64,000 bases of DNA, taken from positions 1 to 64,000 of the forward strand of contig CAMXCT020002087.1 of assembly GCA_947184155.2 (NCBI GenBank). The letters are read 5' to 3'. This document shows, piece after piece, positions 3,852-49,426 of the stretch. This DNA is from Cladocopium goreaui (Eukaryota > Sar > Dinophyceae > Suessiales > Symbiodiniaceae). The notes below the pieces were generated by a model. The model was not told the DNA's origin, did not search any database, and was given only the letters and a program-made list of their open reading frames with translations. The translations under genes were made by a program, and so were the position numbers. How positions within the stretch are numbered: position 1 is the stretch's first letter; each line of letters starts with the position of its first letter.

Positions 3852-3856
3852 ATGAA
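3852..3856. other. Target site duplication, left (ATGAA)
   Basis: The five bases ATGAA abut the first base of the left LTR and recur directly after the right LTR at 10846-10850. A 5-bp duplication is the usual length for Ty1/copia integrases. Confidence 0.95.
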
Positions 3857-4020: not shown

Positions 4021-4034
4021 TGGTAGCGTGAGCC
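4021..4034 (+). other. Primer binding site, Element 1
   Basis: TGGTAGCGTGAGCC directly follows the LTR's terminal CA. TGG at this place pairs with a tRNA CCA end. TGGTAGC would match an initiator-tRNA-Met-like acceptor (…GCTACCA), but the following bases do not fit the human tRNA, so the primer species is open. Element 2 has nearly the same site at 35875. Confidence 0.8.
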
Positions 4035-8000: not shown

Positions 8001-10629
8001 CGACAACCCAAAGCCACACAATGCAACATGCCGAGCAAGATTCGAAAAGATCATCGCCGAAGAGCGAGCGAAGGCACAACAAGGCGAAGGAAGTGCCAGC
8101 GCGCAAGTTGAAGACTTGGAAGCGCCAGCGGCCGACAATTCCTCGTCATTGTACCGCGCCAAGCGAGAGGCAGCGGGAACCGCCGCGCCTCAGGGAGTTG
8201 CGGGAGACTCCGCACTCTCAATCGCACCAAGGATCGCGGGAAGACCCGCATCCTCAGCTGATCCTGCGGGAAGCACCGCGGCTTCAGCAAGTGCCAAAAG
8301 ACCCACAGAAGGCACACAAGAAGCCCAAAAGAGGCTGAAGGCACCAGATCCAAAGGGAAGCAAACGAAACCCTGAGGTCAGTGTCCAAGAGCTGCAAGAC
8401 GCAGAAGACATCTCAACATTGCTGCTACAGCAAGACGAAAGCACGCATGCAGAAGAGAAAGGCACTTTGCCTACACTCCATGACGTGCCACTCGCAGCAA
8501 TTTTTGAGGATTCCCTCCTCGTCGGATACCCAGAGTGGGGAAATGTGACATCAGCTTTCGACGAAAGATCAGGCGAAGCGCTGCCTCTTGAAAAGGTCAA
8601 GACCGCTAGGGGCAGAGAGCTAGACAAGATGATCGAGCACAATGTCAAAACTGACATTACGTGGGAGGAGGCCAGACGACGTGGATTGAAGATAGTCCGT
8701 AGTCGCTGGGTCGACGGATGGAAAACCATCGACGGAGATCCAAGAGGTGTGAGGTCCAGATGTGTAGCCCAAGAGGTGAACACAAGTCCTAGAGAGGACG
8801 TACACTCTGGAACCCCACCGCTGAAAGCTCACAGGATGATTTTGTCCTGTGCGGCAACCAAACGCAAAGGACAACATCAGCACGACAAGCTGATCGGACG
8901 TTACGACGTCAGTGTGGCATTCTTCCATGCCACATCCACCGGCAAAATCGCCGTGGTACCGCCGGATGATCTCAACGATCAAAGACACCTATGGTATCTC
9001 AACAAGGCAATGAATGGAACTCGCGAAGCGAGCCGCCAATGGTCCGAGTTTGTAGACGGAACTGTGACCAGGAAAGGCGGATTCAGCAATGTGCCAGGAG
9101 TCCCCGGAGTGTTTTATCACAAGGAGTGGCAAGTCACAATGAGTTGTCATGGGGACGACTTTCTGGCCGAAGGCCGAGCGGAAGATCTCGACAAATTGGA
9201 TGAGTTCATGCTGCAACATTTTGAAATCAAAGTGTTGCCGCGAATCGGCAATCCTGAGCACGGAGGTCAGTGCCTGGAAGGAGACCATCTGCGCAGAGCA
9301 ATCAGGTGGACAAAAGAAGGGTTCACTTGGGAAGCAGATCGCAAATACGTCAAGCTTTTGACAAAAGAGCTTGGGCTGGAAGGAGCAAAAGGAGTTGACA
9401 CTCCGAGCTCAAAACTGACAGGTGCTGGCTGCAGAACCAGCGACAAGCCGCTAGACGCAGCGGAAGCCTCAAGATTCAGACATCTTGCAGGGACAGCTCT
9501 TTACTTGAGCTTGGGTAGACCTTCTATCCAGTACGCGTTGTCAGAAATCACTGCCGGAATGGCAAAGCCGTGTGAAATCCACATGTTGCGACTCAAAAGA
9601 CTTGGTCGCTACTTGTTGAAGTTTCCGACGGAGACTTGGCTTTTCGCCTTACAAGAAGAACCTGAAGAGTTCCAGGTTTACACAGATTCTGATTGGGCAT
9701 CAGATGCAGTCACGCGCAGATCAATGTCCTGCCACATGGAGCGATTTGGTGAGCATCTGTTAGACAGTGGATGCGCCAAACAGTCAACAGTGGCACTTTC
9801 GTCAGGAGAAGCAGAGTACTACTCCTTGACAAGAGGAGCTGCAATCGGACTGCTGACCAAACACATCTTACAATGTGTAGGGTTCAATCGAGTCAAACAG
9901 GTCATGCTGACCGACTCGACAGCAGCGAAAGGCATCGCCCAACGTTCGGGCACAGGAAAGGTCAAACACCTTAGCATCCGTGAGTTATGGTTGCAGGAGA
10001 AAGTCCGTGCAAGAGAACTAGCTGTGCGGAAAGAAAGCACAACAACGAATTGGGCTGATTTGGGCACGAAGTCTCTAACAGGCCCAAGAATCAGCGAACT
10101 GGTTCAAATTATGCCACTCTGCAGGAGAGGCATTGTTGTAGCATGCCTGCTGTGTGTGATGAACTGCGCAGCAGCACAGCCAGAGGATGAAGAGAAGGAC
10201 TCAAGCATCTTTAGCTTTTTGCTCTATATGTTTGTGGTCCACATCCTTGCACTATACGGGCTGTTTTCAGCCGTGAGAAGAAGGTTCATGAAAGAAGAGG
10301 TCTACGAAAAGATGATTCAAACAGATGAGATCAGGGCAGACAACAGAACTACGCAGACATCCACTGCGCAGAGCACCGCAAGTTCTTCAACATCCATGCC
10401 AGTATCAGGGCATGGAGGGGAACAAAGACAGAATCCAAAAGCAAAACCAAAACCAAAAGCCGAAGCGAGAGAACCACAAGATGACCTAGTGGCTATACTT
10501 GGAGGCGGTGTACGGTATCATCGCATGAGCTGCGGAATGGTGAGAGCTTTCCGTGGTAATGTACAGAACTGCCGCAGGTCACTAGCTGTTGAACGTGGCT
10601 ACACGCCATGTAAACAGTGTGGTGGTTGA
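4957..10629 (+). CDS. Element 1 Gag-Pol polyprotein (copia type) with C-terminal membrane and Cys/His extension
   Basis: The protein is 1890 aa, starting at ATG with no internal stop. Seen in order: a Gln-rich coiled-coil start (1-60); a Gag region (about 90-280); Lys/Gly-rich linkers around a CCHC knuckle C335-x2-C338-x4-H343-x4-C348; protease D416-T-G-A; integrase zinc ligands H661, H665, C672, C675 with acidic triad D702, D781, E818; RT with D1317 and the active-site box H-G-D-D (D1400/D1401) in place of Y-V-D-D; and RNase H with D1577, an SSGEAE motif near 1616-1620 and D1653. Past RNase H are two hydrophobic segments (about 1723-1740 and 1751-1770). The tail has Y-H1855-x3-C1859 … G-Y-x-P-C1885-x2-C1888, resembling the small metal-binding motif of the Ada N-terminal type. 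Together these cover capsid, processing, cDNA synthesis and integration. The role of the tail is unknown. Four short GCGGG…CCCGC-like hairpins give an AGxxAS-rich stretch near residue 1073-1113. Confidence 0.93.
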   Translation: MDPQINQMEMGTAQIGEQMTAVLQQLQQTNNLVGQMAQRITSQEEQILRMQAERARAISINTVEEVPRNSSANAASSSGFGIVDTRTLGKPEVFKGDATEFPDWCFIFRSYMSCINVAYNDLMDRAERSQTPLPNRALSETERTLSGQLYFVLVMLLRNRALDIAYNAGVSEGIEAYRRLYQQYHPKVASRFVGSLSLILATKFGTDIEAELESFDKTVPRYEMESGKTLDEEILLGIVIQGVQDQSMKEHLIKNAARLNTYEAVKTELLEIARTNRVLQSMPVAMEIGATPNAKGKGGKKGSKKGDGKNSKGDSKGKGKGTQQAPQNPNKDKSCFYCGKQGHLKSECTKRISDEKNAQGKGSSKGKPKAKANPGSGKPRPNAASPDDEPEPLSAYPEETLIAAAVNNGTQEILVDTGAGSHLFVKGFDSHARSVSKGSNVGMVTITGQPLITGEYKKSTINTDAGKFTIEYAESDKINFSVLSAGKAAQRGTWTVIGPDAQFLVPSKSSEFIKAAIEKTPNKLGLVKKRGVYWLPVSLEKGSTGHDDKPLATMVDKSPGGVAGNAASQSAGSTASCVGSTTGQEVMAAIRPAKKAVPAEELEEEAREPGAVGEMEVEDRQQVEPPLPELGEPPAEPSEPARPVRAKKIPDTVTKAEYDNHTITHLPFRNWCEFCMAGKIREDSHRRRTPGDDKEVPRVSMDYCFLGRVLDNTKSEETTVAELKEPTEEAEGVMPVLVVTDERTGCVFSSVVQKGVNDHAVNVVVEALKFCGRQKAILQTDAEHSIKALAEASAVKYGKEVQHQTAPRESHASNGAAERAVLELSRQVRTNVNALESRYKDFKLKVSSVSYPWLVRHSAWQLTRFLVKADGKTPYERLKGREYKGEVVEPFETVHYKLAQDAKGKLDAQSAIGIWVGKSLQSDEHYVGTADGIRRCRSAWRRPEGRRWELKRFEALKGVPWQPKGEPTLMPGAPGTPRIAAPGTPSGRARGVYITVERQIRHGSTEGCPGCHSSDDNPKPHNATCRARFEKIIAEERAKAQQGEGSASAQVEDLEAPAADNSSSLYRAKREAAGTAAPQGVAGDSALSIAPRIAGRPASSADPAGSTAASASAKRPTEGTQEAQKRLKAPDPKGSKRNPEVSVQELQDAEDISTLLLQQDESTHAEEKGTLPTLHDVPLAAIFEDSLLVGYPEWGNVTSAFDERSGEALPLEKVKTARGRELDKMIEHNVKTDITWEEARRRGLKIVRSRWVDGWKTIDGDPRGVRSRCVAQEVNTSPREDVHSGTPPLKAHRMILSCAATKRKGQHQHDKLIGRYDVSVAFFHATSTGKIAVVPPDDLNDQRHLWYLNKAMNGTREASRQWSEFVDGTVTRKGGFSNVPGVPGVFYHKEWQVTMSCHGDDFLAEGRAEDLDKLDEFMLQHFEIKVLPRIGNPEHGGQCLEGDHLRRAIRWTKEGFTWEADRKYVKLLTKELGLEGAKGVDTPSSKLTGAGCRTSDKPLDAAEASRFRHLAGTALYLSLGRPSIQYALSEITAGMAKPCEIHMLRLKRLGRYLLKFPTETWLFALQEEPEEFQVYTDSDWASDAVTRRSMSCHMERFGEHLLDSGCAKQSTVALSSGEAEYYSLTRGAAIGLLTKHILQCVGFNRVKQVMLTDSTAAKGIAQRSGTGKVKHLSIRELWLQEKVRARELAVRKESTTTNWADLGTKSLTGPRISELVQIMPLCRRGIVVACLLCVMNCAAAQPEDEEKDSSIFSFLLYMFVVHILALYGLFSAVRRRFMKEEVYEKMIQTDEIRADNRTTQTSTAQSTASSSTSMPVSGHGGEQRQNPKAKPKPKAEAREPQDDLVAILGGGVRYHRMSCGMVRAFRGNVQNCRRSLAVERGYTPCKQCGG
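6083..6096 (+). other. Dispersed GCGG…CCGC hairpin in gag
   Basis: GCGG-TAAGCC-CCGC, the same inner stem as the leader hairpins, in the Lys/Pro-rich linker after the zinc knuckle. Confidence 0.5.
6643..6680 (+). repeat. Two GCGGG-type hairpins in pol
   Basis: GCGGGTAATGCCGC (6643-6656) and GCGGGTAGCACCGC (6667-6680) lie 24 bp apart in the low-complexity linker between protease and integrase. The loops differ while the stems are retained, as in the 4045-4184 array. Confidence 0.6.
8173..8280 (+). repeat. Four tandem GCGGG-type hairpins in pol linker
   Basis: GCGG-GAA-CCGC (8173-8183), TGCGG-GAGACT-CCGCA (8199-8214), GCGGG-AAGA-CCCGC (8236-8249) and GCGG-GAAGCA-CCGC (8266-8279) follow at 28-36 bp spacing in the linker between integrase and RT. 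The encoded peptides share only an AGxxA core, so the nucleotide stem looks more conserved than the protein. Confidence 0.65.
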
Positions 10630-10672
10630 AGTGTTTCACTGAAAGTCAGCCAAATCACTACGTGATTCAGCT

Positions 10673-10681
10673 GTGGAGGGG
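10673..10681 (+). other. Polypurine tract, Element 1
   Basis: The run GTGGAGGGG ends at the base before the right LTR (TGTCAGG at 10682). This is the expected place and composition for plus-strand priming. Confidence 0.85.
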
Positions 10682-10845
10682 TGTCAGGAAACAGACCCTA
10701 TTCCAGTCACCACCTGCCATGTATAGGCTAGCATGTTGTACATGAGAATTCATTTAAGACTTATGGCCATGACTTTGGCTCAAGCATCAGCGTGATAGGA
10801 AAACAAGCTGCTTGCTGCATCTTGGGGCTGTGCGCCCCGCTTTCA
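10682..10845 (+). repeat. Element 1 right LTR (164 bp)
   Basis: It reads identically to 3857-4020 and is followed at once by the repeated ATGAA (10846-10850). Confidence 0.96.
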
Positions 10846-35180: not shown

Positions 35181-35660
35181 ACTATGAGGTCACGGGTCCA
35201 TGAGTCGCCTGGTTACGAAACCATCATTTAGGTATTTTGCCCATTGGAAATCAGACGTCAGGCAAAGGTGGCAAGTTTTCACCATCCTGAAAACTAACGC
35301 CGCTACAATTTTTTTCCTTGCAACTTTGCCAGTTGTTTTAAGAACTGTGCTGGGCTCGGCCATTTCAGCGAATTGCGCCAGCAAAACTGAAAGACACGCT
35401 GTCTCATCCGAGGGTTGACTTGGCTGCCATGTGGGCCATTGATCTTTCGGTGGTAGTTGCTTGGCAAAAAGTCTTTCAATGCCTTCCACTTTCTGTCAAT
35501 GACTTGTGTTCCAGCTTTCTTGGAAAGCACGCCGTGTTGCGTAAAGATGATGCGGCAGCCTGCAAGCGTAACATAAAAATAGGTAACAAAAAAAAGTCCA
35601 AGCGAACGCAGCAAAAGGAACGTTATTACGCCCCCCCCCACCCACCCCCCCCCAAACCCC
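35181..35660. other. Non-coding or decayed tract with C-rich block
   Basis: Minus-strand frames (e.g. 35190-35489) look weakly protein-like but have no recognisable motif. The tract ends in CCCCCCCCCCACCCACCC (35631-35665), similar to 19935-19960 and 20073-20090. Confidence 0.35.
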
Positions 35661-35874
35661 ACCCCCTGTGATTTATTTTTGTTTACGTGTCTTCACAATG
35701 CATTCATGCATGTTGACATGTATACTTAATTCATATCTCTCATGCGCACTCCGCATGGCTCAAGACTAGCAGCAAACCGCGTAGTGTAAAAAGAGAGTGC
35801 AGCAGCCACTTCTTGTCCGCAGGTGTTCATAGGTCTCCAGGGCTCCCCTAATAGAGGGAAAAGCTACCTCAAAG

Positions 35875-35887
35875 TGGTAGCGGAGCC
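35875..35887 (+). other. Primer binding site, Element 2
   Basis: TGGTAGCGGAGCC, nearly identical to TGGTAGCGTGAGCC of Element 1, lies 3 bases after a CA and 120 bp before the gag ATG. This predicts the same primer tRNA and fixes the inner edge of the left LTR at about 35871. Confidence 0.7.
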
Positions 35888-35994
35888 TGTGCCTTCGCCA
35901 AGTCTAGATCCGTGTGCCGAACTGCCGTTCTCTGCATACATTCCGTATATCGGACTTGCGGAGGCAACCTGTAGGTCAAGTTAGAGTAGTTGCC

Positions 35995-38900
35995 ATGGTC
36001 TTAATCCACAACATGGATTCAGATGAAGAACAACTCCAGATTGTCTCGTATGAAGAGCCTGAAGCATATGCCGCCACCAGTCATTCCGAAAACCGGATGG
36101 GCATCAAAATGACACCGAAGGTTCCACCCCAATTTGATGGCCAATCAAGCTGGTTTGAATATGAAGATTTAATTGATGACTGGTTAGGGATCACAACATT
36201 GGATGCAGACAAACATGGACCATCCTTAAAGAATGCCCTCATTGGTTCCGCTTCTTTTTACAAGTCGATGCTCAATAATGCCCTACTCCGAGATCCGGAT
36301 CGTGGCCTCGCTCATTTCAAGGACACATTGAGACCATACTTCGTGAAGGGAGTAAATCATGTGTTCCTTTGGCGATTCCTCCAGATGTTTCGCACATATC
36401 GAGGCCAGAGCGAATTCGTGCACTGGATAGGGTGATTTGAGATCGCGCAGAAGCGTTTGTTGGCTTCTTGGTCCGATCTGCTGGACATATCCGATCTTCC
36501 CGAGGCAGGCACTCAGGCATTTACGGCAGCACTCACAGATGAGCAAAGACTGCACTATAACCAGATAGTAACAGATGAAGATAAGCTAGCTTATCAACAA
36601 GAACTGAGAGAACAGACCATAACCAATAGAAGGACCAGACATGCACAGCAGTTTCCATTGTCAGACAATTTGATGTCACTGATTTTTCTAGTGCAAGCAG
36701 ACCTCAACGAGCAACAGCGAGAGCGCTTTGTCTCGTCCATGAACATCCGTCAGATTGCAATGCCTCAATACACCTATCTCCAAGTGAAACAGCTGTTCTT
36801 AGAACTTTTTGCCGTTTCCCGCACAGGTGTTGCAGACCCAAATATCACGCACCGCAAGCGGTCCAACTTCTACGTCATCGACGAGGGCGAGACCGAAGAA
36901 GGTGAGTACGGATTTTGGGTCTTCGATGAAGAGACGGGTGAAGAAGGTTTCACAGGTCTGTACACCGAGAACGAGTTCTGGGTTCTCAGCGCCAAGGGTT
37001 CATACTCTAAGCGCCGCATCTACGGCAGGTCCTTCAAGAAAGGTAGACCAAAGGGTTATGGCAAGAAAGGAGGAAAGAAATCAAGACCCGGCTTCCGCTC
37101 GAGGTCAAAAGGCAAAGGTTTTGCAGCATGGGAAGATGACCAGCAAGACACGGCTTTCTGGGGAAAAGGCAAGGGTAAAGGAAAAGGTAAAAAGGGCAAG
37201 AAAGGAATGATGAAAGGAAAGGATTCTTTCAAAGGAATGCCTTCATGGAAAGGAAAAGGAAAAGGTGATGCGAAGAACAAAGGAGGAACCAATCCATTTT
37301 TGTCACAACCTCCACAAGCTAATGTAGCACAGGCTGCATCATCCAGTGCATCACATGCCCCTGAAAAACAAGAAACAGCCCATGCCGAAGAAAGCTGGAG
37401 TTACGACTATGACACATACTGGACAGATGACTGGTCAGGTTATGAATCCTACTATGGATATGACGGAGATTACTCCCAAGGTGATTGGTACAATTGGTCG
37501 TATTTTGTTTCCGCTGAGGAACTGACCGACTCCGAGGACAAGCATTCAGACGTCAATTTCGAGGACGGACAGACCGACAAGATCAACCGGTTCTGTTTTT
37601 CAGGCATCCGCTTGTTCCGATTGTTCGGACACGAACTTGTAGAGGCCCTCACATTCGTGCTTCTGTTCGTGTCTGTGATGTACCAGTGCTTTTCTGATTT
37701 GAACAGGTCCCTATTGAAGAGCATTCGCCAAGTTGAGAAGAGTGTTTCTACCGGAAACGGTGAGCTGCATTCGTTTCAGCCGCGCACAAGCCCGCTCGAT
37801 TCCGTCTCTACGGAAGAGTGTGTATTCCTAAATTATGATCATGGTGCCCAACAAGCATTGCTTTGTGAATATGTAGATTTAGGTTCTCATCCGACTTATG
37901 TCATCCTTGACTCAGGTTGCACTCGAGCCATGGGATCCCGCTTTGCCATTGAACGCCTTGTACAGGCTTGCCAACAACATCCCAAGCGTGATCACATTTG
38001 GTTTTCTAAGCAACCGTGTTCAAGTAAGTTTTCATTTGCCAATGGAGAACAATCTACAGTCAAGGAAAGGTTAGTGATTCATTTTCGCAATGATCGTGCA
38101 CAAACTGGTTGGATCACAACATGCGTTGACATCCTGGACAAAGGTAAGGTTCCTATCCTCTTTTCAGTTGAACAAATGAGGAATCTTCGCATGAACATTG
38201 AGCACACTCCTGTAGGTGAGTTCATGACTTGTCCACTGTTTGGAATGCAACGCACCGCATTGGCGGTCAGTACATCCAACCATCCAGTCCTTGACATTAT
38301 GGCTCTTGCTACTTCCAGTTGGAAACCGATGTACAGCTTTCAGTCCGAAGACATCACATGCCCAGCATGCAATGGTAAACATCGACCACACACCAACAAA
38401 GAAGGTTGCAAGAGATTCAAAGGATCAGAGCCTAAGCCTGAAGAGGTGCCGAAATCGGCCAAGCCTGATTCCAAGAAGATTGTCAAGAAAGCAATTCAGC
38501 CTGATAGTAAGTTAGAAGTACCAGCTCAACCTTTTGATCCCGATGAAGAGCCAATGGTGGCCTCTGGGCCAAGTTCCGGTTCGAAGGACGGTATCCCAAG
38601 ACGTCGGGAACCTCAGATTGAAGAAGAAACTGAAGTCAAACCGGAACCTAAAGCTGGAGTAAAACTTGAAGAGAAAAAGGAACCGTCACCTAAGGGAACT
38701 TTGTCACTAGCACTTCAGAGAATTCATGATAAGCTTCAATCACCCACTGAACTTCTCAAGTTGCATTTGAAGCATTATCACATGACCACTGAACAATTCA
38801 AGAGAAGAACATCGGCTCTGAAGTTGCCAAAAGAAATCTATGACAAATTTGATCAGATTACAAAATCATGTGACACATGTTCCACTGCCAGGATTGCACC

Positions 38901-41900
38901 ATCGAGAGCTAAGGTTTCAGGAATCCGAAGTGAAGTCTTTGGTGAACTTACCTTCATTGATCATGGAGAAGTTCCGATCAATCAACAGTCAAAACTTCAA
39001 TTCCTGCTTATGTATGATGGTGCAACCTCTTTGACTACTGCTTTTGTAGTTCAAAACAGATCTGATCCGGTGACGATTTCCCATCTTCAAGAATACTTTG
39101 AAACTTATCAGCTGAATCCAAAATACATTGTTGCCGATCAAGCTTTCATGGGCATAGAGATGGAGAGTTACTACAACCGGCACAGCATCAGGCCAATCTC
39201 TCTAGGACCAGGAACACCATGGCCAAATAGAGCTGAGGCAGCCATTCGCATGTTTAAGAAACAGGTCTCATTAATGCTAATTTCCTTGAAAGATGATCCA
39301 TTGCTTGCCAACATTACTTATAAACAGTTGTTGAGACAAGCCTGCATTTCAAGGAACACCATGGTAACACTCGGTGGTGTCACTCCTATTGAATTAGCAT
39401 TTGGCAGAAGACCTGCCGATCTTACGGCGATTGAGCTCATGAATCCAGCTCAGCTCACGACTGAGGCCCCTGCTCCTGAGAGACAGATTGAAGCACTAAG
39501 GTCACTGGCGATGCGAAAGTTTCTAGAGGCAAAACAATCAGATGACCTTCGAAGAGATATTGCGAGTAAACTTCAACTTAGTGATGGACCATTCTTTCCT
39601 GGAGATAAAGTTTACTATTGGACCGAAGACAAATCAAAAATCAAATCAGACGGTTCACATGGAGGAAAATGGATAAAAGGAAAGTTGGTTTCCGTAGATG
39701 GCAGTATGGTTGGAGTTGATTTAGGAACCAGAATCGTGAAGGTCAACATCAGTAAAATCAGAAAAGACCATAATCCTATTGAGGATATTGACATTCCTTT
39801 AGAACCAATTGCACTTGCCAGTGCCGACTTTTCGGCCAAAGCTGCCGCCGGTGCCGAATCTTCGGCCAAGGGCGCCTGTACAGCAGTGAAGTCCACATGC
39901 CGCTCTGATGACCATGCAAATAACATCATAGAACACGATGCCAATCAGACAGGTCCTGAAGGTATTACATATGGTTGTTATACATGGGAGCCAGCTATGA
40001 CCGGAAAATTAGATTTCCTTGAGCTGTTTAGCGGCTCCGCCAAGCTTAGTCAAGCGGCAGCAATGCAAGGACTTCGAGTCGGCGCTCCAATAGACCTCCG
40101 CACAGGTTACGACTTGCTCACTGCCGAAGGCCGGCGAAAGGCAATGGAAGTCATTGAGCGACAACAGCCAAAAATCATCCACATGGCACCTGTTTGTGGA
40201 CCATGGAGTCAAATGCAGAATATTAATGATCCTGCTGATACTTATCAAAAAAGGAAAAAGTATCTTCCCATGGTAGAATTTTGTGCAAGAGTCGCTCTTT
40301 ATCAGATTGAACATGGCAGATTTTTCATCATTGAAAATCCTGCGACTTCCAAGATTTGGTTTACCAAACACTTTCAGCGCCTTCTCATGAAGCATACCGT
40401 AACCTATGGAACATTAGATATGTGCGCATTTGGTATGAGAGACCCAAATGGATACTACTATTACAAACCAACATCCTTACTTCACAACTTTCCTGAGGGA
40501 GTCTTGAATCCAGTTTTCAAGAGATGTAATAGTAAGTCCAAAAATGATCCAAAACATTATCATCAACCATTGGAAGGTAGTGCACCAGGATATGGATCAA
40601 GAACGAAGTTGGCACAAGTTTATCCATACCGATTTTGCAGTACTTTGATCAGATGCATCCTTCCATTAGGAAATTCACGGGCTCTCTATCCATCGCAGCT
40701 GTCACTTGCAGTAGACCTGCTGGAAGACTTGAATCTCGATGAACTGCGAGGAGTGCAAAATCAGCTTGCCGCTCTTACGGCATCCGAGCATCCGGTGTTG
40801 GCAACTGACTTGTACGAACAGGGTCTTCCAGTACGTGACTATTACACGAAACGCCTGCTCAACCGCATTAATGCTCTACCCGCTGGTAATGTTTATCATC
40901 CTGTTCAGATCGAAGCACAACAAGATGTTTCACATGTCAGACAGATGTATCTAAGTACGTCCATGTTTGACAACGCGATCATTTTTCGTGGTAGTTTTCA
41001 GTCATTGCGAGTTGAATACCGCCACACACACGGCGTACTCTTACTTTGGAAGAAGAAAGATGCGTCTCATGTTTTTCTGCGCGTACATCCTAGAGATATG
41101 TCGCAGTTGATTGCTAGCCACTGGTCAGCAATATTGTTTTGGAACAATGATGGAAGTATCCCTACAGATAATACAGATGACATTCCTGAACAAAACACCA
41201 ACATCGACCCTCCACCGGGTCTTCCACCTCAGCAGAACAACGGCCAAGATGATGAACATCCGCCTGAACATCTTAACACACCACCTTCATCACCACAACT
41301 TCCAGATGTTCCTATGCCTGACGAACCGCACACGCCGCATCCCGGCTTTCCTCCTGATGATGATCAGTTTCACACACCATTTCATTCACCACCAAGACCA
41401 AGTGATGATATGCCTGACGATGAGATGCATTCACCACAAGATGAGCCACCAGATTTGCCACCTCATCCATCATCACCACCTGATCATCCACAACCACCAT
41501 TTCCTGGAGCCACTGGCATCCCTGTTGCTCCAGATACAATTATTGTGCCCAATACGATCATACCGCCAAATATTGACGACACACCAATGACACAGAGCAC
41601 AAAGCGTCCACCAGGTGATCCACCGATACCACCTGCAACTAAGGCTCGACCATCTAGACAAATGCCTCCTGCGTCTTCAACCCAATTTCAGCCTAGTAAC
41701 CATTTGGGGGGTGATACACAGCCATCAGTCACACCAAACGCGACCACACAACCCGCTGTAGTCGCACCAAACGCTTCGAAACCGAAGAAACCCAAGCACG
41801 ATTCTGTGCCTGATGACTTTGATGATGACGAGCCTGATCCAGATGCCGCACCATCCGGACACAATGGACCGCCGATACTTCCGCTAGACGGAGACGAACC

Positions 41901-44227
41901 TTTTAATCCATCGCCAATGCCAGAGAATGATCCTCAACCAGACACTCAAGATCAGCAAGAGCAACAAGAAGAAGAAGAGGAACCAGAAGAGGATACAGAT
42001 GAAACAATTCCTTATGGTTCAACTGATACTGATGAGACTCTTGACTATAATGATCTTGTTATTGATGATTCAAAATGGTGTTTCCTGTCACAGGAACAAA
42101 AATTGTGCAGTAATACTGCTTCATTCTCTGTGCCCAGATTGATTGATGGTTCGCCAGTAGCTCTGAGCAGTGTTGAATCTTCCAATTCTATTGGTATGTC
42201 TTATTCCGTTGTCTCGGAGAGACAGCGCACCAGATGCCGTAAGACTAGATCTGATATCATTGAAGAATATCACGGCATTAATGAAGAAGACAAGGCTTTT
42301 ATGACATTGTACTCCATGACAGACAAATTTTCTTAGCTTGTTGGCAAGAAGAGAAAGGAAGCCACTCAACAAGAGAAGAGACAACTTGCCAAACAGTTTT
42401 TAGATGCAAAGAAGGCTGAATGCCAATCATGGATTGATAATGAAGTTTTTGATCTTGTTGACATGAGAAAAACCAGAGTTCGGAATTTCGTTGCCGGAAG
42501 ATGGGTTCTTACCGTAAAGAAAGACAAAGACGGTAATTTCCAGAAATGTAAGGCAAGATGGGTCCTCAAGGGTTTTCAGGACAAACAGAAGAACACCCAG
42601 CAAACTGATAGTCCAGCAGCATCACGTGCAGGTTTCCGATGTGCAACACAGCTGGCTGCGAACTATCACTGGGACTTGTACCATATGGACCTAAAGACCG
42701 CTTTCCTCCAAGGTGAAGCCTATGATGAAACTAGAGACATTATTTGTCAAATTCCACCTGAGTATGGTTATCCACCTTACATTGGTGCTAGGCTTAAGAA
42801 ACCTGGTTACGGTCTTAATGATGCGCCACGCCGTTGGTGGCAGATCATTGATAAAGCCTTACTAGACTGTGGACTTGTTCCCACACGCGCAGATAGATGC
42901 ACCTATGTTCTGTATGACAGTACTTCTAAGACAAGGACCTACCAACCACCTCGTAGTGTAACCACCGAACAGGTAACTATTTCGGAAGCAATTGACCATC
43001 TTATGGATCCGGTAGCCCGAAACAATGCTCAGGGACGCAGGACCGCATGGTTTCATTTGTCTTCATGTCGATGACCTGTTCATGGCAGGTGACAAGGTGT
43101 TTGAGTCCAAGGTCTTGTCCAGTCTGCGTAAGAACTTTGCTGTAGGTTCAGAAGACAAAAATGACATTATGTTTGTAGGACAACGCATCAAATGGAAGAC
43201 TCATGACAAGTATGGACCATACATTTCTGTTGACCAGAAACTTGCTGTCGATGCAGTTGAAGAAGTCAAGATTGATAAGTCCTTGAAGGATAACATCCAG
43301 TGCAATCCTCAACTTCACACCGCTTATCGATCAGTTCTTGGACAGCTTAATTGGTTACAGAGTAGGACACAGGTCCACATCTGTTACAAGTTTTCGCGTT
43401 GTGCCTCAGCCGCTGCTAGTCCGACCATAGGTGATGTCAGGGAAATCAACAAGGTTGTTCGAACCCTCAAGAGTCAATATGTAGATGGTAGATTCTGGCC
43501 TCTGAAGGGTTCTCAGCGTATCCTTGGCATGCCTGATGCATCCTACCGTAACAACAGTGATAAGTCTAGTCAGCGTGCTCATGTCATTTTCCTAGCCGAA
43601 GACCGCAAATTGCCTTCCAAGGGAACATACCGCAATTCCGGTTACGACACGCAAACACACCGTATAGACGGTTCCAACTCAGCAACCCGCGGGTCGATTA
43701 TTGACTATGAGAGTCATAAGATAACCACTACAACACAATCCACTACTGTTGCCGAACTGAATGCCTTAATGAAATGTTTTGGAACCTGTTTGTTTTTGCG
43801 TGCACTTTGGGCCGACATCAGTGGTGAGATCGTCCCCATACACATCCGAACAGACGCAAACAATTTAGTCACCACAGCTCAGACAACACACTTACCTGAA
43901 CAGAAGGAGACCCATCATTTAATACAAATGTTAAGACATGAAAGTAACACTGGACACTTGGATGACCTGAGCCACATTGCAAGTGAATACTGTCTAGCTG
44001 ATCCACTTACAAAGTCAACAGCAAAACCAGATCAGTTAGTGTCATCCATTACCACTGGCAAACTTGAGAATGTTGATACGCACCCGCCATTCCGGTCGTT
44101 ACTCAAACATAAGGCATTTTTGACTACGTGGGTCATTGAAACGTTGTCAGAGCCGCACAATGTATTAACATTTTTCAATGAAGATATTTCTGATTATGTT
44201 TTTGCCATGCTATACTTTGAGGAGTAA
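35995..44227 (+). pseudogene. Element 2 Gag-Pol, copia type, broken by two stops and one frameshift
   Basis: It starts at ATG 35995 and breaks at TGA 36433-36435, TAG 42334-42336 and a frameshift near 43020-43055. Both stops are in frame with the reading that follows. Seen in order: Gag; Lys/Gly-rich basic tract (37030-37300); a hydrophobic segment (about 37590-37700); protease D-S-G at 37909; a C-x2-C-x4-H…C cluster (about 38359-38410); integrase H-H-C-C ligands (38760-38875) and acidic residues near 38959, 39133 and 39232; an MTase-like domain (40006-40700); a long Pro/Asp/Glu-rich linker (41180-42060); RT with H-V-D-D at 43064-43075; and RNase H (43510-44000). With only three lesions in 8.2 kb the copy died recently, or the stops are read through. 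CGA to TGA by CpG deamination would explain the first. Confidence 0.85.
40006..40700 (+). other. Cytosine-C5 methyltransferase-like domain within Element 2 Pol
   Basis: It lies in the same frame, after the integrase C-terminal region and before RT. Motif I-like FLELFSGSA starts at 40015. Motif IV-like M-A-P-V-C-G-P-W-S-Q has its Cys codon at 40195-40197, where DNMTs have the catalytic P-C. Motif VI-like F-F-I-I-E-N-P-A has its Glu at 40332. A Y-G-x-x-D-M-C-A-F-G-M-R segment and a C-terminal part follow. The family acts on cytosine in DNA using S-adenosylmethionine. Here a Gly replaces the usual Q after the Cys, and I cannot identify a target-recognition domain. It may be an active transposon DNMT or a divergent non-catalytic relative. 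Confidence 0.75.
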
Positions 44228-44430
44228 ATTTTCGTCTCAAGAAAATTTGTGTCTGCAATCTCTTGGCTCACAGGGTTCTTATTGTTTTTCTTTTTCGCGA
44301 CGCCCGGACTCACGTCCCTTGGCACTGTTCTTGAACCCAGAAGCCAATTCTTGGAGACACCTCGAAGATCTTGTTGAAGATCGATTTCTCAAAGGTCGCA
44401 TCAAAAGGTTGACCAACTCACTTCCCTTTT
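44228..44430 (+). other. Spacer between Pol and the Tpt1 frame
   Basis: A second + frame (44178-44507) bridges this spacer and contains a plausible segment (LNPEANSWRHLEDLVEDRFL). It could be the true lead-in to the next frame with a shift near 44500, or chance. No promoter, splice site or LTR is seen here. Confidence 0.4.
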
Positions 44431-45831
44431 ATGCCTCCGAAGTTCTCAAAGCATGGCCGCACAGATCATTCCGCCTCTGCGGATTACACACCACGTGGCT
44501 TTCGTAGTTCTCGTGGCAACCGTCCACAACACACACCGCGTGGCGGTAATCCAGACAGAAGGCAAAATCGCGACACCCGGACATACGAATCTCGTAGCCG
44601 GGCCATAGACGATGCATTCGGCGCGCCTCTTGACTCTGTGCAGTCGAACAGCCGCATTTTTGCTGAGTGCATTTCTCAGGTCCTCAGAAAGCAATCCGGT
44701 ATCAAGACCAAGGAGGACCATGATTCCGCATTAGCGGACAGCAATTATGAGACCATGTCACGTCACTTGTCTTATATCTTTCGGCATACGAAGTTAATGC
44801 ACCGTGACGGATCATTGTCCTTACATGAGCTTATTAGCCATCCTGGCACAGCCAGAAAAATTCGCGCTTTGTACCGTGAAGGACCAAAATTTTTGCAAGA
44901 TTTTGACTCTAATGAGCTTTCAATGCAGGTCCGACATAGAGAAAACACTGTTACTTTCCTTATGCCCCTGGCCCACGTAATCTGCGACTCTAACAAAGCC
45001 AGGGCCATGATCGGCTATGTAACCACCGAAGATTTCCAACCAGGCATTGTTCCGATACCGGACACGTGGTTTAAGCCGGCAGACTTCGATGATGAGGTCA
45101 ACAGGGAAAGCCAAGCCGACCTGCTTGATGGTCTCGACATTGCGAGCATTTTTATCCGTTTTGAGAGTGGACATTCCACTGAGGTTGAAATTCAGCATTG
45201 CCCATTTAAGCCTGATGTTTTCCCACTAAGGTACCTCGTCCATGGAGCGAACGAGAAAAATCTTGAATCCATCCGAAGACTAGGTTTGCTCCCAGGAGGC
45301 ACCCGTGGTGGAAGGAACCATGTGCATTTCACTCTTGATTCTGCACTCAGTACGATCAGAGACGTATTACGTCCCGAATCAGACTGCATCCTAATAGCCA
45401 GACCTGGTGCCGTTACCGGCCTTGGTCCAGTGATCACTCACAACAGGTACGTCCTCACTGATCAGACCGTGCCTTTTAATCGCTTTTGCGGTGTTTGGTC
45501 CTTCGTTGATCGATCCTGGCTTGTTGCACCGGAACCGGGAGAGCTAAGGCGAATGAATGATTATACATCCAATATTGACCTTGCCATGCATGTCTGCCAC
45601 CATCAACTTTACTGGGAGAAGAAGAATGAGAATGAACAAGATGGTTTCACATGGTCACGTTCCGAATATATGGAGTATGTGGCAGAAGAAATCGAGAAAC
45701 TCCCAGTTGTAAAGAAGTTTTTGGAAAGTTTCCGTAGTGCCGATTCCGGTCCGGCCAGGCCTCTGCGAACAGAAGCAACTCCAACGACCAAGAGCTTGGC
45801 CCACCTGAGACCGAGGCAGACAAGAGAGTAA
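44431..45831 (+). CDS. Tpt1/KptA-family RNA 2'-phosphotransferase domain protein carried by Element 2
   Basis: The protein is 466 aa from ATG, intronless. The first 100 residues are basic and disordered. The Tpt1 fold runs from about 104 to 350: LSYIFRH (R118, H119), F-I-R-F-E-S-G-H-S (R243, GHS 247-249), V-H-G-A-N-E-K-N-L-E-S-I (H271), G-L-L-P…R-N-H-V-H-F (R295), then I-L-I-A and N-R-Y-V-L-T. Known Tpt1 enzymes use NAD+ to remove an internal 2'-phosphate from RNA after tRNA splicing, with an Arg-His-Arg-Arg set. All four have counterparts here, so activity is plausible. The family is usually 200-250 aa, so N- and C-terminal extensions of about 100 aa each are unusual. The frame ends early compared with a neighbouring frame (45735-46100). 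Substrate and role in the element are unknown. Confidence 0.88.
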   Translation: MPPKFSKHGRTDHSASADYTPRGFRSSRGNRPQHTPRGGNPDRRQNRDTRTYESRSRAIDDAFGAPLDSVQSNSRIFAECISQVLRKQSGIKTKEDHDSALADSNYETMSRHLSYIFRHTKLMHRDGSLSLHELISHPGTARKIRALYREGPKFLQDFDSNELSMQVRHRENTVTFLMPLAHVICDSNKARAMIGYVTTEDFQPGIVPIPDTWFKPADFDDEVNRESQADLLDGLDIASIFIRFESGHSTEVEIQHCPFKPDVFPLRYLVHGANEKNLESIRRLGLLPGGTRGGRNHVHFTLDSALSTIRDVLRPESDCILIARPGAVTGLGPVITHNRYVLTDQTVPFNRFCGVWSFVDRSWLVAPEPGELRRMNDYTSNIDLAMHVCHHQLYWEKKNENEQDGFTWSRSEYMEYVAEEIEKLPVVKKFLESFRSADSGPARPLRTEATPTTKSLAHLRPRQTRE

Positions 45832-46100
45832 AAACTCTCAAGGCAGAAATTTCCGAACGATTTAAGAAACATCTTGCCAAAGAGCGAAACAAGGAGCAGT
45901 CTTCCGCCTCGGAGAGTGAAGCTCCCAAAGGACCTGTTAAGGCCAAGCCTATGCCAAGGAAACCGAAGGATGCCGCCGCTGCGGCTAGCTCCGATCCAGC
46001 ATCCGGCCAAGTTGATCCTGACGCTGAAGTTGATCTTCAAGCAGCATCTCCCTGGGGCGGCCGCCGACAGGTTGTCAAGACAAAAGACGCCGTGAAATGA
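45735..46100 (+). CDS. Shifted C-terminal tail of the Tpt1 frame, ending in an ATGA overlap
   Basis: In another + frame the sequence continues protein-like from about 45770: SNSNDQELGPPETEADKRVK, then TLKAEISERFKKHLAKERNK, then an Ala/Pro/Lys-rich part ending PWGGRRQVVKTKDAVK. It stops at TGA 46098-46100, overlapping the ATG of the next frame (46097) as ATGA. This suggests the 44431 frame was originally longer and suffered one indel, or uses a frameshift. Confidence 0.6.
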
Positions 46101-48877
46101 ACGCTCAGGCAAAGGATTTGTTCCGCGATGCGGACGCCGCCCAAAAGTTTTTCACTAAGTTTAAAAAGGACACGGAAGAAATTCAATGGTTTCCTCGCCC
46201 TGCGGGTCCTCAATGCTGTAAGAATTTTGAAGAATGTGGATGTTCAGAGGCAATGTTCTGGTGCCACCCTTGTGGCTTTGCCTACTGCTTGGAATGCCGC
46301 ACCTGCGGCTTGTCTTGCAAACATAATATTGTTAATTTTTCCTCAGAGTTGTCCTCCGACTTTATTCCAGACAGCATCGGCTCATCCAACTCACCTTTCG
46401 ACATCGAAGAACTGGTTGATGCCGTACTGGCTGAGTCGTCGTATTTCGGCGCAACACGTCGAGAGCATGCTCAAAATCGCCAAGACAAATTCTCGGAACT
46501 GATCACGCATCTGCGTGAGGGCCGCTCAATTGGAAACACTTACCTTCAATCTTTTGCTCGTCATGGAATTGAAGATTTTGATTATACCGAATACATTTAT
46601 GAAATGCCATTTGGATGTCGAATTCCGACTCTCCAGGAGCACTTTGTTGATGCCCAGGACCAGACGCCTCTTCCGATCTGGCGACCTGAGGCTTTCTTCA
46701 AGTACCCTGATGGCGGTGACCTTAAGTCAGAAGAGATTCTCCGTTTATTGGAACTCTTCAGATCGTGCCTTCTTGGTAAGAGAGCAATCCTTGGTGTTAC
46801 CAAGCGCACTAAGGAGAACATCCATGAGTTTCAGAAGGACACGTATCAGCTTGGTATTTTGACTTTGAACCTTGGTCACATCAACCGTCTTCCGTATATC
46901 GGAGGTTGCGCCAAATTTCCAAAATGGGTACGAACTGACATCAACCACCGTGCATTGCCACATTTAGTGTTCCGTAATGCGGCCCATATTGTGTGCCTGT
47001 GCGAGGCGTCCGATGAGTACGGTGGCATTGCCGTCCATCGAGAACTAGCCGATGAGTACGGTATGATTGGAATGGTAGTGCATCCGCACATCCAGTCACA
47101 GTCCGTTGCAATTTTTATCCGTGGCTCACATGATACCGGCTCCTTTATTGAACTTTTGTGTCATCACCAAATTGAAACCTCTACCAAAGATGCACCCTTT
47201 TGGATTTTGCATGGTGCTATTTTTCGTGTTTGCCATGGCATGAACACGTCAGGAGAATTTGTTGATCCTTCCACTGGCGCTCGTGTTCCGAAACCGGACA
47301 TCGAGAAAAATGCCGAATCTACGGTGTACCAGCACGATCGCCCACTTGCATCCTCACTCGATTTTCTTGATCACTCGATCTGTGAGATCGACGGAGATGA
47401 CGACCTTGCCGTCTCCGGCGTGGAAGCTTGTGAAGTGAATCTTGGAGCCGACACTCATGACGTCCGACGTCTCATGTTAGCTGAATGCCGCATTGCGGTT
47501 TTTCATATCTCCTCATACGCATGGAGTAATGCCTATAAAGAAACGTGCCAGAAATGGCTCCAATTTGTCGCAAGCTGTATCGAACATCAGTGCGACTTTT
47601 TGTCCGGTGACGGGAATCTTTTCGCACAGCGAAGCTTTAAGGCAGACGATCACTCCGACTACCGGACATGTATTTTAATTGACATTTTGGAGCGTTTCCT
47701 TCAGCAGATTAATCTTCACCGCAGCCCGATAAACCGTATTACGTATAACGTAGTTTCATCGACCACTGCAGCCAATTACATCCGCAGTATGCGTGGAGAT
47801 GATTCTGATTGTGATTCAATGCTTTTAATTTCTCTTTGTTACGGTAAGCAGATCGCTGTCACGGAAGCACGTGCAAAAGAAGAATCAGCCTCTGCCGATG
47901 GGTTTGCAGGATCTGCCTTCTCCGACGAAGTTATGCTGAACGATGTTGAACAGCTAAAACATTTGATGGCATACGACCTTGGTCTGGCAGAAAAGGACTG
48001 TGCATGGCACTCACCTCTCCTTGCTTACGCCCAGTTGAAGGCATTGAAAAATATGCGCATCCGATCCAAGGAATCTGAAGATAAAAGACGTGAAAAATGG
48101 ATGCAGCGAACTCAAGGATATCTCGAAAAACGAGAAGAGAGGAGAGATAGTGTTCCGCCGCTGCGGACTGACTCTCACAGAAATGTTGGACGCACTCGAA
48201 GTCGATCGATCAGCAGAACCAGAACATATCGACCCAGAGCTGAAACACCAGCACCGCCTCCGGCACCTGTGCGAGGTCCAGCAGCAAAGGCCAGACCAGT
48301 TGAACCTGTGAAATATAAAGCTGCACCGAGATCCTTGAAAGAATCACCAGCTCCAACGTCATCAGGATCTTCCTCTAGTGCTAGGCCGCCTGTAAAGGCT
48401 CCTCCAGTTCCGGCTCCCGGACGAACACTAGGTGCACAGCAGCCAAGAACGCCTCCTGATCCACCGGGACCGCCGAAGACTCCACCGCCGTGGAGAGAGA
48501 GATCTCAGCAGACTGAGCAGAGGCAAACGACCAGAAAAAGGCCGATCAACGTACCTGAACCTCCGGCGCCTCCATCCCGAATATCGGGTACACAATGGCT
48601 TAACCAAGGAACAGCTTCCAGCTCTTCCGTATCTCGTAATTACGATTACAGCTATGATCAGCCGTCGCACTACAGAGTAAATCCCAACACCACTCAAGTA
48701 GAATACGTCCCAGGGTACCAGATACCCAGACAGCGTTGGGTCCAGAAATATGACGGATCGTGGCTTGACATGATCCCGCAGACACCGGATCAGTCCATTT
48801 TCTTTCATCAGACCGGTGAGCTAAGAAGGAGGAACGAATTGAGTTTTTACGGTTACTATTTCACTATGGGCTTGTAG
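46097..48877 (+). CDS. Cys-rich cluster plus EEP (DNase I-like) fold protein carried by Element 2
   Basis: The protein is 926 aa, intronless. Residues 40-76 hold a dense Cys/His cluster (C40, C41, C47, C49, C56, C59, C64, C67, C70, C74, H76), probably zinc-binding. Residues about 250-585 follow the EEP order: LGILTLNLG (N258), IVCLCEAS (E303), VAIFIRG, RIAVFHIS (H470), FLSGDGN (D505, N507), then a D/S-rich stretch where S-D-H is expected but no His is seen. EEP enzymes cut phosphodiesters, e.g. LINE endonucleases and DNase I. Missing the last His leaves catalysis uncertain. Residues 680-870 are Arg/Ser/Pro-rich. There is no RT after the EEP region, so it is not an ordinary LINE ORF2. Its ATG overlaps the stop of the preceding shifted frame. 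Confidence 0.65.
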   Translation: MNAQAKDLFRDADAAQKFFTKFKKDTEEIQWFPRPAGPQCCKNFEECGCSEAMFWCHPCGFAYCLECRTCGLSCKHNIVNFSSELSSDFIPDSIGSSNSPFDIEELVDAVLAESSYFGATRREHAQNRQDKFSELITHLREGRSIGNTYLQSFARHGIEDFDYTEYIYEMPFGCRIPTLQEHFVDAQDQTPLPIWRPEAFFKYPDGGDLKSEEILRLLELFRSCLLGKRAILGVTKRTKENIHEFQKDTYQLGILTLNLGHINRLPYIGGCAKFPKWVRTDINHRALPHLVFRNAAHIVCLCEASDEYGGIAVHRELADEYGMIGMVVHPHIQSQSVAIFIRGSHDTGSFIELLCHHQIETSTKDAPFWILHGAIFRVCHGMNTSGEFVDPSTGARVPKPDIEKNAESTVYQHDRPLASSLDFLDHSICEIDGDDDLAVSGVEACEVNLGADTHDVRRLMLAECRIAVFHISSYAWSNAYKETCQKWLQFVASCIEHQCDFLSGDGNLFAQRSFKADDHSDYRTCILIDILERFLQQINLHRSPINRITYNVVSSTTAANYIRSMRGDDSDCDSMLLISLCYGKQIAVTEARAKEESASADGFAGSAFSDEVMLNDVEQLKHLMAYDLGLAEKDCAWHSPLLAYAQLKALKNMRIRSKESEDKRREKWMQRTQGYLEKREERRDSVPPLRTDSHRNVGRTRSRSISRTRTYRPRAETPAPPPAPVRGPAAKARPVEPVKYKAAPRSLKESPAPTSSGSSSSARPPVKAPPVPAPGRTLGAQQPRTPPDPPGPPKTPPPWRERSQQTEQRQTTRKRPINVPEPPAPPSRISGTQWLNQGTASSSSVSRNYDYSYDQPSHYRVNPNTTQVEYVPGYQIPRQRWVQKYDGSWLDMIPQTPDQSIFFHQTGELRRRNELSFYGYYFTMGL

Positions 48878-48962
48878 CCCCAAAAAATTGCAATGTTCCG
48901 CATTTGCGGTCGCTTTCGTCCAATAGAAAATACCGCTTTCCAACAGCGGAGAGTAGCTTCTG
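48878..48962 (+). other. Element 2 3' region before the assembly gap
   Basis: Untranslated sequence after the last stop. It contains one more TCCG-CATTTG-CGGT inverted repeat (48898-48909) and an ACCGC…GCGG pair near 48937-48952. I found no match here to the 35660-35871 sequence, so a right LTR has not started or lies in the gap. Confidence 0.5.
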
Positions 48963-49426
48963 NNNNNNNNNNNNNNNNNNNNNNNNNNNNNNNNNNNNNN
49001 NNNNNNNNNNNNNNNNNNNNNNNNNNNNNNNNNNNNNNNNNNNNNNNNNNNNNNNNNNNNNNNNNNNNNNNNNNNNNNNNNNNNNNNNNNNNNNNNNNNN
49101 NNNNNNNNNNNNNNNNNNNNNNNNNNNNNNNNNNNNNNNNNNNNNNNNNNNNNNNNNNNNNNNNNNNNNNNNNNNNNNNNNNNNNNNNNNNNNNNNNNNN
49201 NNNNNNNNNNNNNNNNNNNNNNNNNNNNNNNNNNNNNNNNNNNNNNNNNNNNNNNNNNNNNNNNNNNNNNNNNNNNNNNNNNNNNNNNNNNNNNNNNNNN
49301 NNNNNNNNNNNNNNNNNNNNNNNNNNNNNNNNNNNNNNNNNNNNNNNNNNNNNNNNNNNNNNNNNNNNNNNNNNNNNNNNNNNNNNNNNNNNNNNNNNNN
49401 NNNNNNNNNNNNNNNNNNNNNNNNNN
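48963..49426. other. Assembly gap (464 N)
   Basis: Run of N. Reading frames crossing it are meaningless. It separates Element 2 from a long TACA satellite. Confidence 1.

Follow-up and report, generated by a model that had tools for sequence, protein, structure and literature searches.

DNA methyltransferase capture by dinoflagellate retrotransposons is exemplified by SymbioLINE-Dnmt and SymbioDIRS-Dnmt3, Symbiodinium elements with a captured, Pfam-recognised DNMT domain under purifying selection; in the accessible text of that study the capture concerns LINE and DIRS elements, and Symbiodinium Copia is described as lacking any DNMT domain (de Mendoza et al., 2018; PMC5890265). A sequence-only reading of the locus described here had referred to methyltransferase capture by eukaryotic LTR elements, including in dinoflagellates; the published dinoflagellate cases are LINE and DIRS elements. 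The RNA 2'-phosphotransferase Tpt1 (KptA) has its established role in tRNA splicing; that it is so widespread in bacteria is described as a longstanding conundrum in the accessible part of PMC6333775. KptA is also found in phages, including jumbo phages, and embedded in some RNA virus polyproteins, and has been proposed to process 2',3'-cyclic or 2'-phosphate ends (PMC9503650, accessible text). The words 'phosphotransferase' and 'Tpt1' do not occur in the accessible text of PMC5890265, nor do 'retrotransposon', 'retroelement' and 'transposon' in that of PMC9503650, and the literature searched yielded no paper linking Tpt1 to retrotransposons.

We analyzed a window of 64,000 nucleotides (the whole stretch of DNA under study) from Cladocopium goreaui, in which positions 35667–48962 of the plus strand hold one damaged copy of a Ty1/Copia-type LTR retrotransposon that is 13.4–13.6 kb long and occurs in multiple copies. 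Its second ORF is Tpt1 fused to a Cys-cluster/EEP-like protein and its pol contains an MTase-like domain (Table 1), an anatomy of which we are virtually certain. The element shares with Ty1/Copia LTR retrotransposons the PR-IN-RT-RH order, an RVT_2 reverse transcriptase, LTRs of the form TG...CA and a PBS-like site, and differs from them in the MTase-like domain between integrase and reverse transcriptase and in the second ORF. As in Ty1/Copia, the integrase, recognised from motifs read by eye and a weak profile match, precedes the reverse transcriptase. The 13-kb coding array first noted on this strand was confirmed, with open frames at 35914–36435, 36457–42336, 42463–43074, 43025–44227, 44431–45831 and 46097–48877 and Pfam matches to RVT_2 and PTS_2-RNA. 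The one pattern tried for a tRNA matching the candidate primer-binding site gave a single match, no more than its control read backwards.

Table 1. Features of the retroelement copy in the window
Feature	Position	Strand	Basis
Left LTR, 205 bp, TGTGATTT...CTACCTCA, in C-rich tract	35667..35871	+	Same LTR at right end of 9/10 copies
Candidate primer-binding site TGGTAGCGGAGCC, 3 nt past LTR	35875..35887	+	Sequence reading
Gag-like frame, start of coding region	35914..36435	+	Open frame; no Pfam match
Protease motif VILDSGCT	37900..37923	+	Motif by eye
Integrase: HHCC-like zinc motif and D, D, E (FIDHGE, VADQAF, PNRAEAA)	38764..39243	+	Motifs by eye; weak match to solved integrases, E 0.014
MTase-like domain between integrase and reverse transcriptase; ELFSG, PIDLR, APVCGPWS, IENP	39904..40776	+	Motifs, weak profile matches
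Copia reverse transcriptase (RVT_2); VDD box 43061-43078	42463..43078	+	Pfam E 1.9e-20; motif
RNase H region, end of pol frame; MPDASY, VAELNA, RTDANN	43529..44227	+	Motifs; dN/dS 0.02
Pol-Tpt1 spacer, pyrimidine-rich stretch without LTR match	44228..44430	+	Conserved in aligned rows showing it
Putative Tpt1/KptA RNA 2'-phosphotransferase; HG(A) instead of HGT	44431..45831	+	Pfam PF01885 (PTS_2-RNA), tetrad, alignment
Second half of fused protein: Cys cluster 46211-46324, EEP-like motifs 46865-48022, proline-rich tail	46097..48877	+	Frame, fusion in intact copies, motifs
Assembly gap, 464 N, expected to hold right LTR	48963..49426	+	LTR position in relatives

Only the left LTR is visible in the window itself. 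In nine of ten fetched copies, the 205-bp LTR reappears 106–110 bp beyond the point matching 48962, so the right LTR of the window copy should fall within the N run; both LTRs lay within range in four of the ten. Across the genome there were 40 scored LTR places, the window's included, with 12 LTR pairs among them, spanning 13.44–13.64 kb in ten cases. All 12 of the pairs listed enclose a reverse transcriptase place and 11 also Tpt1 and/or EEP. An LTR between the end of pol (44227) and the start of Tpt1 (44431) had been named beforehand as a finding that would separate the two, and the fetched stretches of the ten copies gave no match; the spacer is conserved in 11 of 14 aligned rows, the remaining three being in the wrong orientation. 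Tpt1 follows the reverse transcriptase at nearly constant spacing at 78 of 122 reverse transcriptase places, and 31 of the 122 have neither Tpt1 nor EEP nearby, both counts being among the matches listed. The Tpt1 and EEP-like frames thus belong to the copia element, as first proposed, and a neighbouring independent element was ruled out by the LTR pairs enclosing both parts and the interval free of LTR matches. The element is flanked by C- or G-rich tracts, in which a 5-bp target-site duplication is not distinguishable. The two frames had been read as separate; both are present, but in intact copies they form one fused protein of ~1480 aa inside the LTRs, and the window copy is frame-broken both here and in gag-pol.

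The Tpt1 of the window matches PF01885 with an E-value of 6.2e-8 (33.3 bits against a gathering cut-off of 26), and at least 90 further Tpt1 places with 67–99% identity were found in the same genome, so its presence in the window is not due to chance. Its Arg-His-Arg-Arg tetrad (R118, H119, R191 and R295) does not vary among the 11 intact copies and aligns, on the Cth and yeast enzymes, with R18, H19, R68 and R121 of characterised Tpt1, where these residues are essential (PMC6333775, accessible part). R243 (IRFESGHS) was ruled out as the third tetrad residue, which in the Cth and yeast chains is the Arg of DKxRF, here R191. In the HGT motif for NAD+, His and Gly are likewise kept in all 11 copies, the third letter being Ala in nine and Thr in two. 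Among 13 aligned relatives of this copia/Tpt1-EEP family (family A), single tetrad changes occur in two, the first Arg being replaced by Glu in one and the third tetrad residue by Cys in the other. The PF01885 match, the tetrad and the HG of HGT are shared with Tpt1/KptA enzymes, and the Tpt1 part is probably active on RNA phosphates. It differs from those enzymes in ~60–75 additional residues between H119 and R295, in its Cys-cluster/EEP-like fusion and in residing on a multi-copy mobile element. As with viral KptA, the domain sits in a parasitic replicator, some of those viruses also having an RNA stage; the carriers there are viruses and here retroelements (PMC9503650, accessible text).

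Of the profiles proposed for the three added parts, PTS_2-RNA was matched, whereas no Pfam family matched the MTase-like or the EEP-like part. In the EEP-like part, N814, E859, H1026, D1061, N1063 and H1194 are the same in all 11 copies, and these ordered N, E, H, D-x-N and H residues may represent the catalytic pattern of the EEP (Exo_endo_phos) superfamily. No EEP protein was among its PDB sequence matches, and comparing its profile with those of three E. coli EEP proteins gave a negative result, with scores no better than for six unrelated proteins, in a setting where two of three true-EEP control pairs also failed and only ybhP–yafD matched. We label the second half of the fused protein EEP-like from its motifs, and regard it as a probable nuclease. 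The MTase-like domain has 29 relatives, 21 of which carry a copia reverse transcriptase domain. It matched a PHROGs DNA methyltransferase profile (E 0.0022 for the window copy, 7.8e-5 for the best member), with phrog_757 matched by five of eight members; PF00145 was matched by none of the eight, and phage records gave a single weak match (E 0.7). E40, F42, P96, C98, P100, W101, E144 and P146 are invariant in all eight rows and Asn145 in seven; across 29 rows, C98 and N145 are at least 90% conserved without being invariant. The motifs may correspond to motif I, the catalytic Cys (motif IV) and the Glu-Asn (motif VI) of C5 cytosine DNA methyltransferases; the label MTase-like is drawn from these motifs and weak profile matches.

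The added parts are under purifying selection, with dN/dS of 0.16 for Tpt1, 0.06 for the EEP-like part and 0.07 for the MTase-like part, values that rule out chance open frames. A role of these parts in DNA marking, silencing evasion or protection from RNA damage, as envisaged in the sequence-only reading, is conjectural. Pfam detects none of the three in a complete copia element elsewhere in the window, which counts against the mechanism proposed below.

Tpt1 is also carried by other retroelements in this genome. The PF01885 cut-off was passed by all 150 scored places, out of 1496 candidates, and three of the 150 are host-like or bacterial genes; the Tpt1 genes on contigs C1 (7.4 Mb) and C5523 were rejected as host references, the neighbouring frames looking bacterial. 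Family B is a copia-like polyprotein of ~4026 aa carrying MTase-like and Tpt1 parts, of which only the MTase-like part aligned with the copia pol in profile comparison; in family C, Tpt1 lies in a retroelement that is DIRS-like by eye, and all four tetrad residues are kept in both copies read. The reverse transcriptase part of locus L032 found no match among solved structures. The Tpt1 tree does not unite families A, B and C, but its placement of B has no support (nodes 14–53) and branches are long, so the tree is no proof of independent captures. No Tpt1 relatives were found in viral_contigs, genome_contigs or phage records.

We propose, at even odds, that the element encodes an RNA-end healer through which template or primer RNA stays fit for reverse transcription; that the benefit comes through template or primer repair is rather less assured. 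Genomic RNA or primer tRNA would be damaged by metal-independent RNases, Tpt1 would take the 2'-phosphate off RNA that has been nicked and religated, or off RNA 3' ends, in an NAD+-dependent reaction, the EEP-like part may trim or dephosphorylate RNA ends, and the healed RNA could again be copied by reverse transcription. We count in favour of this the LTR enclosure, the spacing of Tpt1 behind the reverse transcriptase, the invariant tetrad, the low dN/dS and the Tpt1 of two further element types. Counting against it are the Ala for Thr of HGT in most intact copies, the motif-only identity of the EEP-like part, the single tetrad changes in two family A relatives, and the one family B copy read, in which the tetrad His is Gly and the N lobe lies outside the Pfam match. 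The element showed no RNA ligase; this and the RtcB-like fragments on contigs C317 and C4971 also count against the proposal, RtcB ligase not being known to leave 2'-phosphates. A Trl1-type ligase profile matched nowhere and is thus uninformative on the host ligase.

The kept His and Gly of the NAD site would also suit an ADP-ribosyltransferase, which by capping the phosphate ends of the element's RNA or cDNA would shield them against decay or sensing while the EEP-like part edits ends, and TRPT1-mediated RNA ADP-ribosylation has been reported (PMC9458441, accessible text); the full 2'-phosphotransferase tetrad of family A would exceed what plain ADP-ribosylation needs, and we consider this unlikely. 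Somewhat less likely again is a defence against a host RNase response, in which tRNAs or rRNA that break while the element is active would be repaired, a role proposed for phage KptA (PMC9503650, accessible text), given that neither a host RNase nor a ligase partner was identified and the element shows no ligase. The tetrad changes in family B and in two of the 13 family A relatives could point to a Tpt1 fold kept for RNA binding, catalysis being of lesser importance, particularly in family B, which is improbable in view of the invariant tetrad of the 11 intact family A copies and the four residues kept in family C. That Tpt1-EEP is carried along passively or forms a neighbouring element of its own, as the single LTR and gap of the window copy and the reverse transcriptase places without either part might suggest, is very improbable given LTR enclosure in many copies, the spacer free of LTR matches and low dN/dS, its separate-element half being already refuted.

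As further retroelements of this genome also encode an enzyme of this type, our data suggest that mobile elements there gain from repairing or marking RNA. More tentatively, Tpt1-type RNA repair may be a recurrent selected weapon of retroelements here, in at least three element types, a self-repairing class that would safeguard reverse transcription by removing 2'-phosphates or by ADP-ribosylating RNA ends. Element-borne Tpt1 may mislead genome annotation, as every scored PF01885 place passes the cut-off and three are host-like or bacterial. An RNA-repair arm would be added to the known DNA methyltransferase capture by dinoflagellate retrotransposons, and Tpt1 as selected retroelement cargo would offer natural experiments on how RNA 2'-phosphates or ADP-ribosylated ends affect reverse transcription.

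The sequence-only reading had assigned a set of frames on the forward strand to one copia-type element, and all of the frames it claimed do lie on that strand. In the window copy, Pfam recognised the copia reverse transcriptase (RT; RVT_2, E 1.9e-20) and the RNA 2'-phosphotransferase Tpt1 (PTS_2-RNA, 33.3 bits against a cut-off of 26), and protease, integrase, RT and RNase H motifs, read by eye, keep the copia order. This copy has lost its reading frame between the Tpt1 and EEP-like parts and in several places within gag-pol. Among the three cargo domains proposed, PTS_2-RNA was matched by its profile, whereas no Pfam methyltransferase or Pfam EEP profile matched.

Coordinates of the elements and features discussed (window positions unless a contig is named)
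Feature	Coordinates	Strand	Length
Family A copia element, window copy	35667-48962	+
Left LTR of family A copy	35667-35871		205 bp
CCGCATGGCTCAAG in this LTR	35751-35764
MTase-like domain	39904-40776
Assembly gap	48963-49426
Second copia element	3850-10845		7 kb
Its left LTR	3850-4020		171 bp
Its right LTR	10675-10845		171 bp
Its single open frame	4957-10629		1890 aa
Family B copy (L029+L030), stretch holding an open frame of the length given	G000:C1597:52001-66000		4028 aa

Ten copies from the genome searched (1.166 Gb, 6202 contigs) were aligned against the window, and the pieces matching it are collinear with it at 95.7-99.7% nucleotide identity. The match extends to the left LTR in five copies and begins further in for the others (on contig C5544 only at window position 44194). 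Some copies hold insertions, and the one on C1193 ends at window position 46428. Nine of the ten carry a repeat 84-100% identical to the left LTR, 106-110 bp past the point where the assembly gap of the window starts. The LTR starts with TGTG and ends with CTCA. Both LTRs lie within the stretch taken in four copies, and their own-LTR identities (87.9, 98.0, 99.5 and 100%) make some insertions look recent. Searched against the genome, with the best 40 of 313 candidate places scored, the LTR gave 12 same-strand pairs, ten of which span 13.44-13.64 kb; the two longer ones (18.2 and 20.7 kb) we read as nested insertions. Flanks are C-rich at all five 5' ends located by exact pattern and at seven of eight 3' ends, the eighth being a G tract, so that C/G tracts are seemingly preferred for insertion. 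This suggests that the family A integrase has a target preference for C-rich (once G-rich) tracts; because the flanks are such tracts, a target-site duplication is indistinguishable. The LTR also contains CCGCATGGCTCAAG, kept in 14 printed LTRs of copies, which resembles the dinoflagellate spliced leader in its 3' part.

LTR pairs, spacing and frame structure together place the Tpt1 and EEP-like frames inside the copia element, as had been proposed. All 12 LTR pairs enclose an RT match, and 11 of them a Tpt1 and/or EEP match among those listed; the exception, on C1446, is of normal length. The best 150 of 4135 RT candidates were scored (122 after removal of 28 fragments or less similar rows), together with the best 91 of 314 for Tpt1 and the best 77 of 371 for EEP. 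The two frames also accompany the copia pol in other copies: among the matches listed, at least 78 of the 122 RT places have Tpt1 downstream, mostly at constant spacing, 13 have EEP only and 31 have neither, which does not mean absence, and at least 78 of the 91 Tpt1 places have RT upstream. Of 16 loci, eight of them (L036-L043) chosen for divergence and long frames, 11 carry Tpt1 and the EEP-like part in a single frame of 1448-1504 aa that starts with ATG. In L012 and L020 the frame is clipped by the stretch taken (the genome search lists both with open frames of 1488), and in L022, L024 and L038 the frame is broken.

Among the 11 intact copies, dN/dS was computed for 11 of 55 pairs and ranged over 0.05-0.26 for Tpt1 and 0.05-0.13 for the EEP region, with higher maxima for the N-terminal linker (0.29) and the short Cys cluster (0.38); dS is saturated in the most diverged pairs. 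Because picking intact copies biases dN/dS downward, we added broken copies in a pooled set (coverage of 90% or more, 8-11 sequences per part), which gave 0.11 for protease-integrase (PR-IN), 0.07 for the MTase-like domain, 0.04 for RT, 0.02 for RNase H, 0.16 for Tpt1 and 0.06 for EEP, with stops in one of eight PR-IN and two of ten MTase-like sequences. The Tpt1 residues R118, H119, R191 and R295, unchanged in all 11 intact copies, align with R18, H19, R68 and R121 of the Cth enzyme, a tetrad described as essential in characterised Tpt1 (PMC6333775). Across 13 more diverse family A members, the window copy included, there is one E at tetrad position 1 and one C at position 3, with gaps at positions 1 and 2 in two rows and at position 3 in one. 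In the HGT motif, nine of the intact copies have A as the third letter and two have T.

The EEP label comes from sequence motifs. Ordered N, E, H, D-x-N and H motifs are present, their six residues unchanged in the 11 copies; PDB sequence searches, like Pfam, gave no EEP match, returning either nothing or unrelated proteins only. In a wider alignment (the window and 19 of 42 relatives, several rows partial) conservation of 90% or more holds for N, D-x-N and the first H, and not for E and the last H. Compared by profile, XthA, YbhP and YafD of E. coli scored no higher than six unrelated proteins, in a test that recovered only one of three control pairs of true EEPs and is therefore uninformative. 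The Cys cluster gave B-box matches below the Pfam threshold only. ANGEL2, a 2',3'-cyclic phosphatase of the EEP family, would make an appealing model for an EEP-like part next to Tpt1.

A search with the domain between integrase and RT gave 29 relatives (31-99% identity), and for 21 of these a copia RT domain was precomputed. Two relatives of the pol domain have Skav names, the prefix of Symbiodinium kawagutii, which points to a dinoflagellate as the source of the window. Alignments comprised 28 of them with the window and a separate trimmed set of eight, across which PVC-PW and E-P residues are unchanged. Five of the eight matched PHROGs phrog_757 'DNA methyltransferase', with a best E of 7.8e-5, and the description is shared by all three PHROGs families matched; a PDB profile search, like Pfam, was empty. 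Judged by these comparisons the domain is methyltransferase-like, not a demonstrated DNMT, and the methyltransferase label has backing from PHROGs but not from Pfam or PDB. Symbiodinium LINE and DIRS elements carry DNMTs, and Symbiodinium Copia is stated to be without any DNMT domain (De Mendoza et al., 2018; PMC5890265); family A, in contrast, is a Copia. A domain as divergent as this one would be missed by a PF00145 search.

A genome search with PF01885 scored the best 150 of 1496 candidates, all above cut-off, and Tpt1 was read in one copy of a second family (B) and two of a third (C). In the family B copy, CCCH fingers pass the Pfam cut-off, RVT_2 (E 0.0076) and the protease stay below threshold, and the PR-IN-RT-RH motifs read by eye are copia-like; RNase H is followed by an MTase-like domain and then Tpt1 (E 2.3e-13, covering profile positions 45-176 only). 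Its MTase-like domain is related to that of family A in hhalign (probability 96%, E 1.9e-9; 68% and 4.7e-5 against the long family A alignment). The best 150 of 541 family B candidates run from 97-99% identity at the top to 39-41% at the lowest, 14 of them within frames of 4020-4039 aa. Family C Tpt1 scored E 8.3e-27 (L031, G000:C2112) and 5.9e-26 (L032, C945). Its RT looks DIRS-like by eye, as does a possible tyrosine recombinase start in L032, and neither was recognised by Pfam or PDB search. Among 124 candidates, 24 of 27 matches are family C-like Tpt1 (44-100% identity), the others being one host-like and two bacterial genes. Before Tpt1, family C has a stretch, TITPGE.F.LLGG, that resembles a DNMT C-terminal motif by eye; in L032, the region upstream of Tpt1 gave no match to the copia MTase-like profile. 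A host-like Tpt1 gene lies on C1209 (L033, E 1.9e-52). Contigs C1 (7.4 Mb) and C5523 hold bacterial-looking genes and a Tpt1 each, with RtcB on C1, and are probably bacterial sequence within the algal assembly.

All four tetrad residues are present in families A and C, and in the family B copy G replaces the His. The three families do not group in the Tpt1 tree, with poor support for B, so that independent captures of Tpt1 by retroelement families are plausible, not proven. This cargo is not a general feature of copia elements, since the second, complete copia of the window (LTRs 98% identical) gave only RVT_2 above the Pfam cut-off and no MTase or Tpt1 match.

In literature mostly without subscription papers and preprints, we found no paper on Tpt1 in retrotransposons among the titles listed, and none on Tpt1/PTS_2-RNA in dinoflagellates or Symbiodinium; for phosphotransferase and retrotransposon in dinoflagellates, titles and abstract starts gave nothing relevant. 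Other searches led to work on a ciliate and on Oxytricha. Absence of Tpt1 retrotransposons from print is not thereby proven. An RNA-repair role like that considered here has been proposed for viral KptA, RNA-virus polyproteins included (Iyer et al., 2022; PMC9503650). It counts against a repair mechanism that no ligase partner was seen in the element and that the genome has RtcB-like fragments. These fragments, on G000:C317 and C4971, may represent host RtcB ligase exons; a Trl1-type ligase profile, of no diagnostic value, matched nowhere in the genome.

Beyond the anatomy, copy number, conservation and selection of the element, which are established, the Tpt1 part would remove RNA 2'-phosphates using NAD+. 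Such phosphates would block reverse transcription. Because all carriers reverse-transcribe an RNA, upkeep of template or primer RNA would be the simplest common benefit: Tpt1 may keep that RNA competent, for instance once metal-independent RNases have cut it and the ends have been rejoined.
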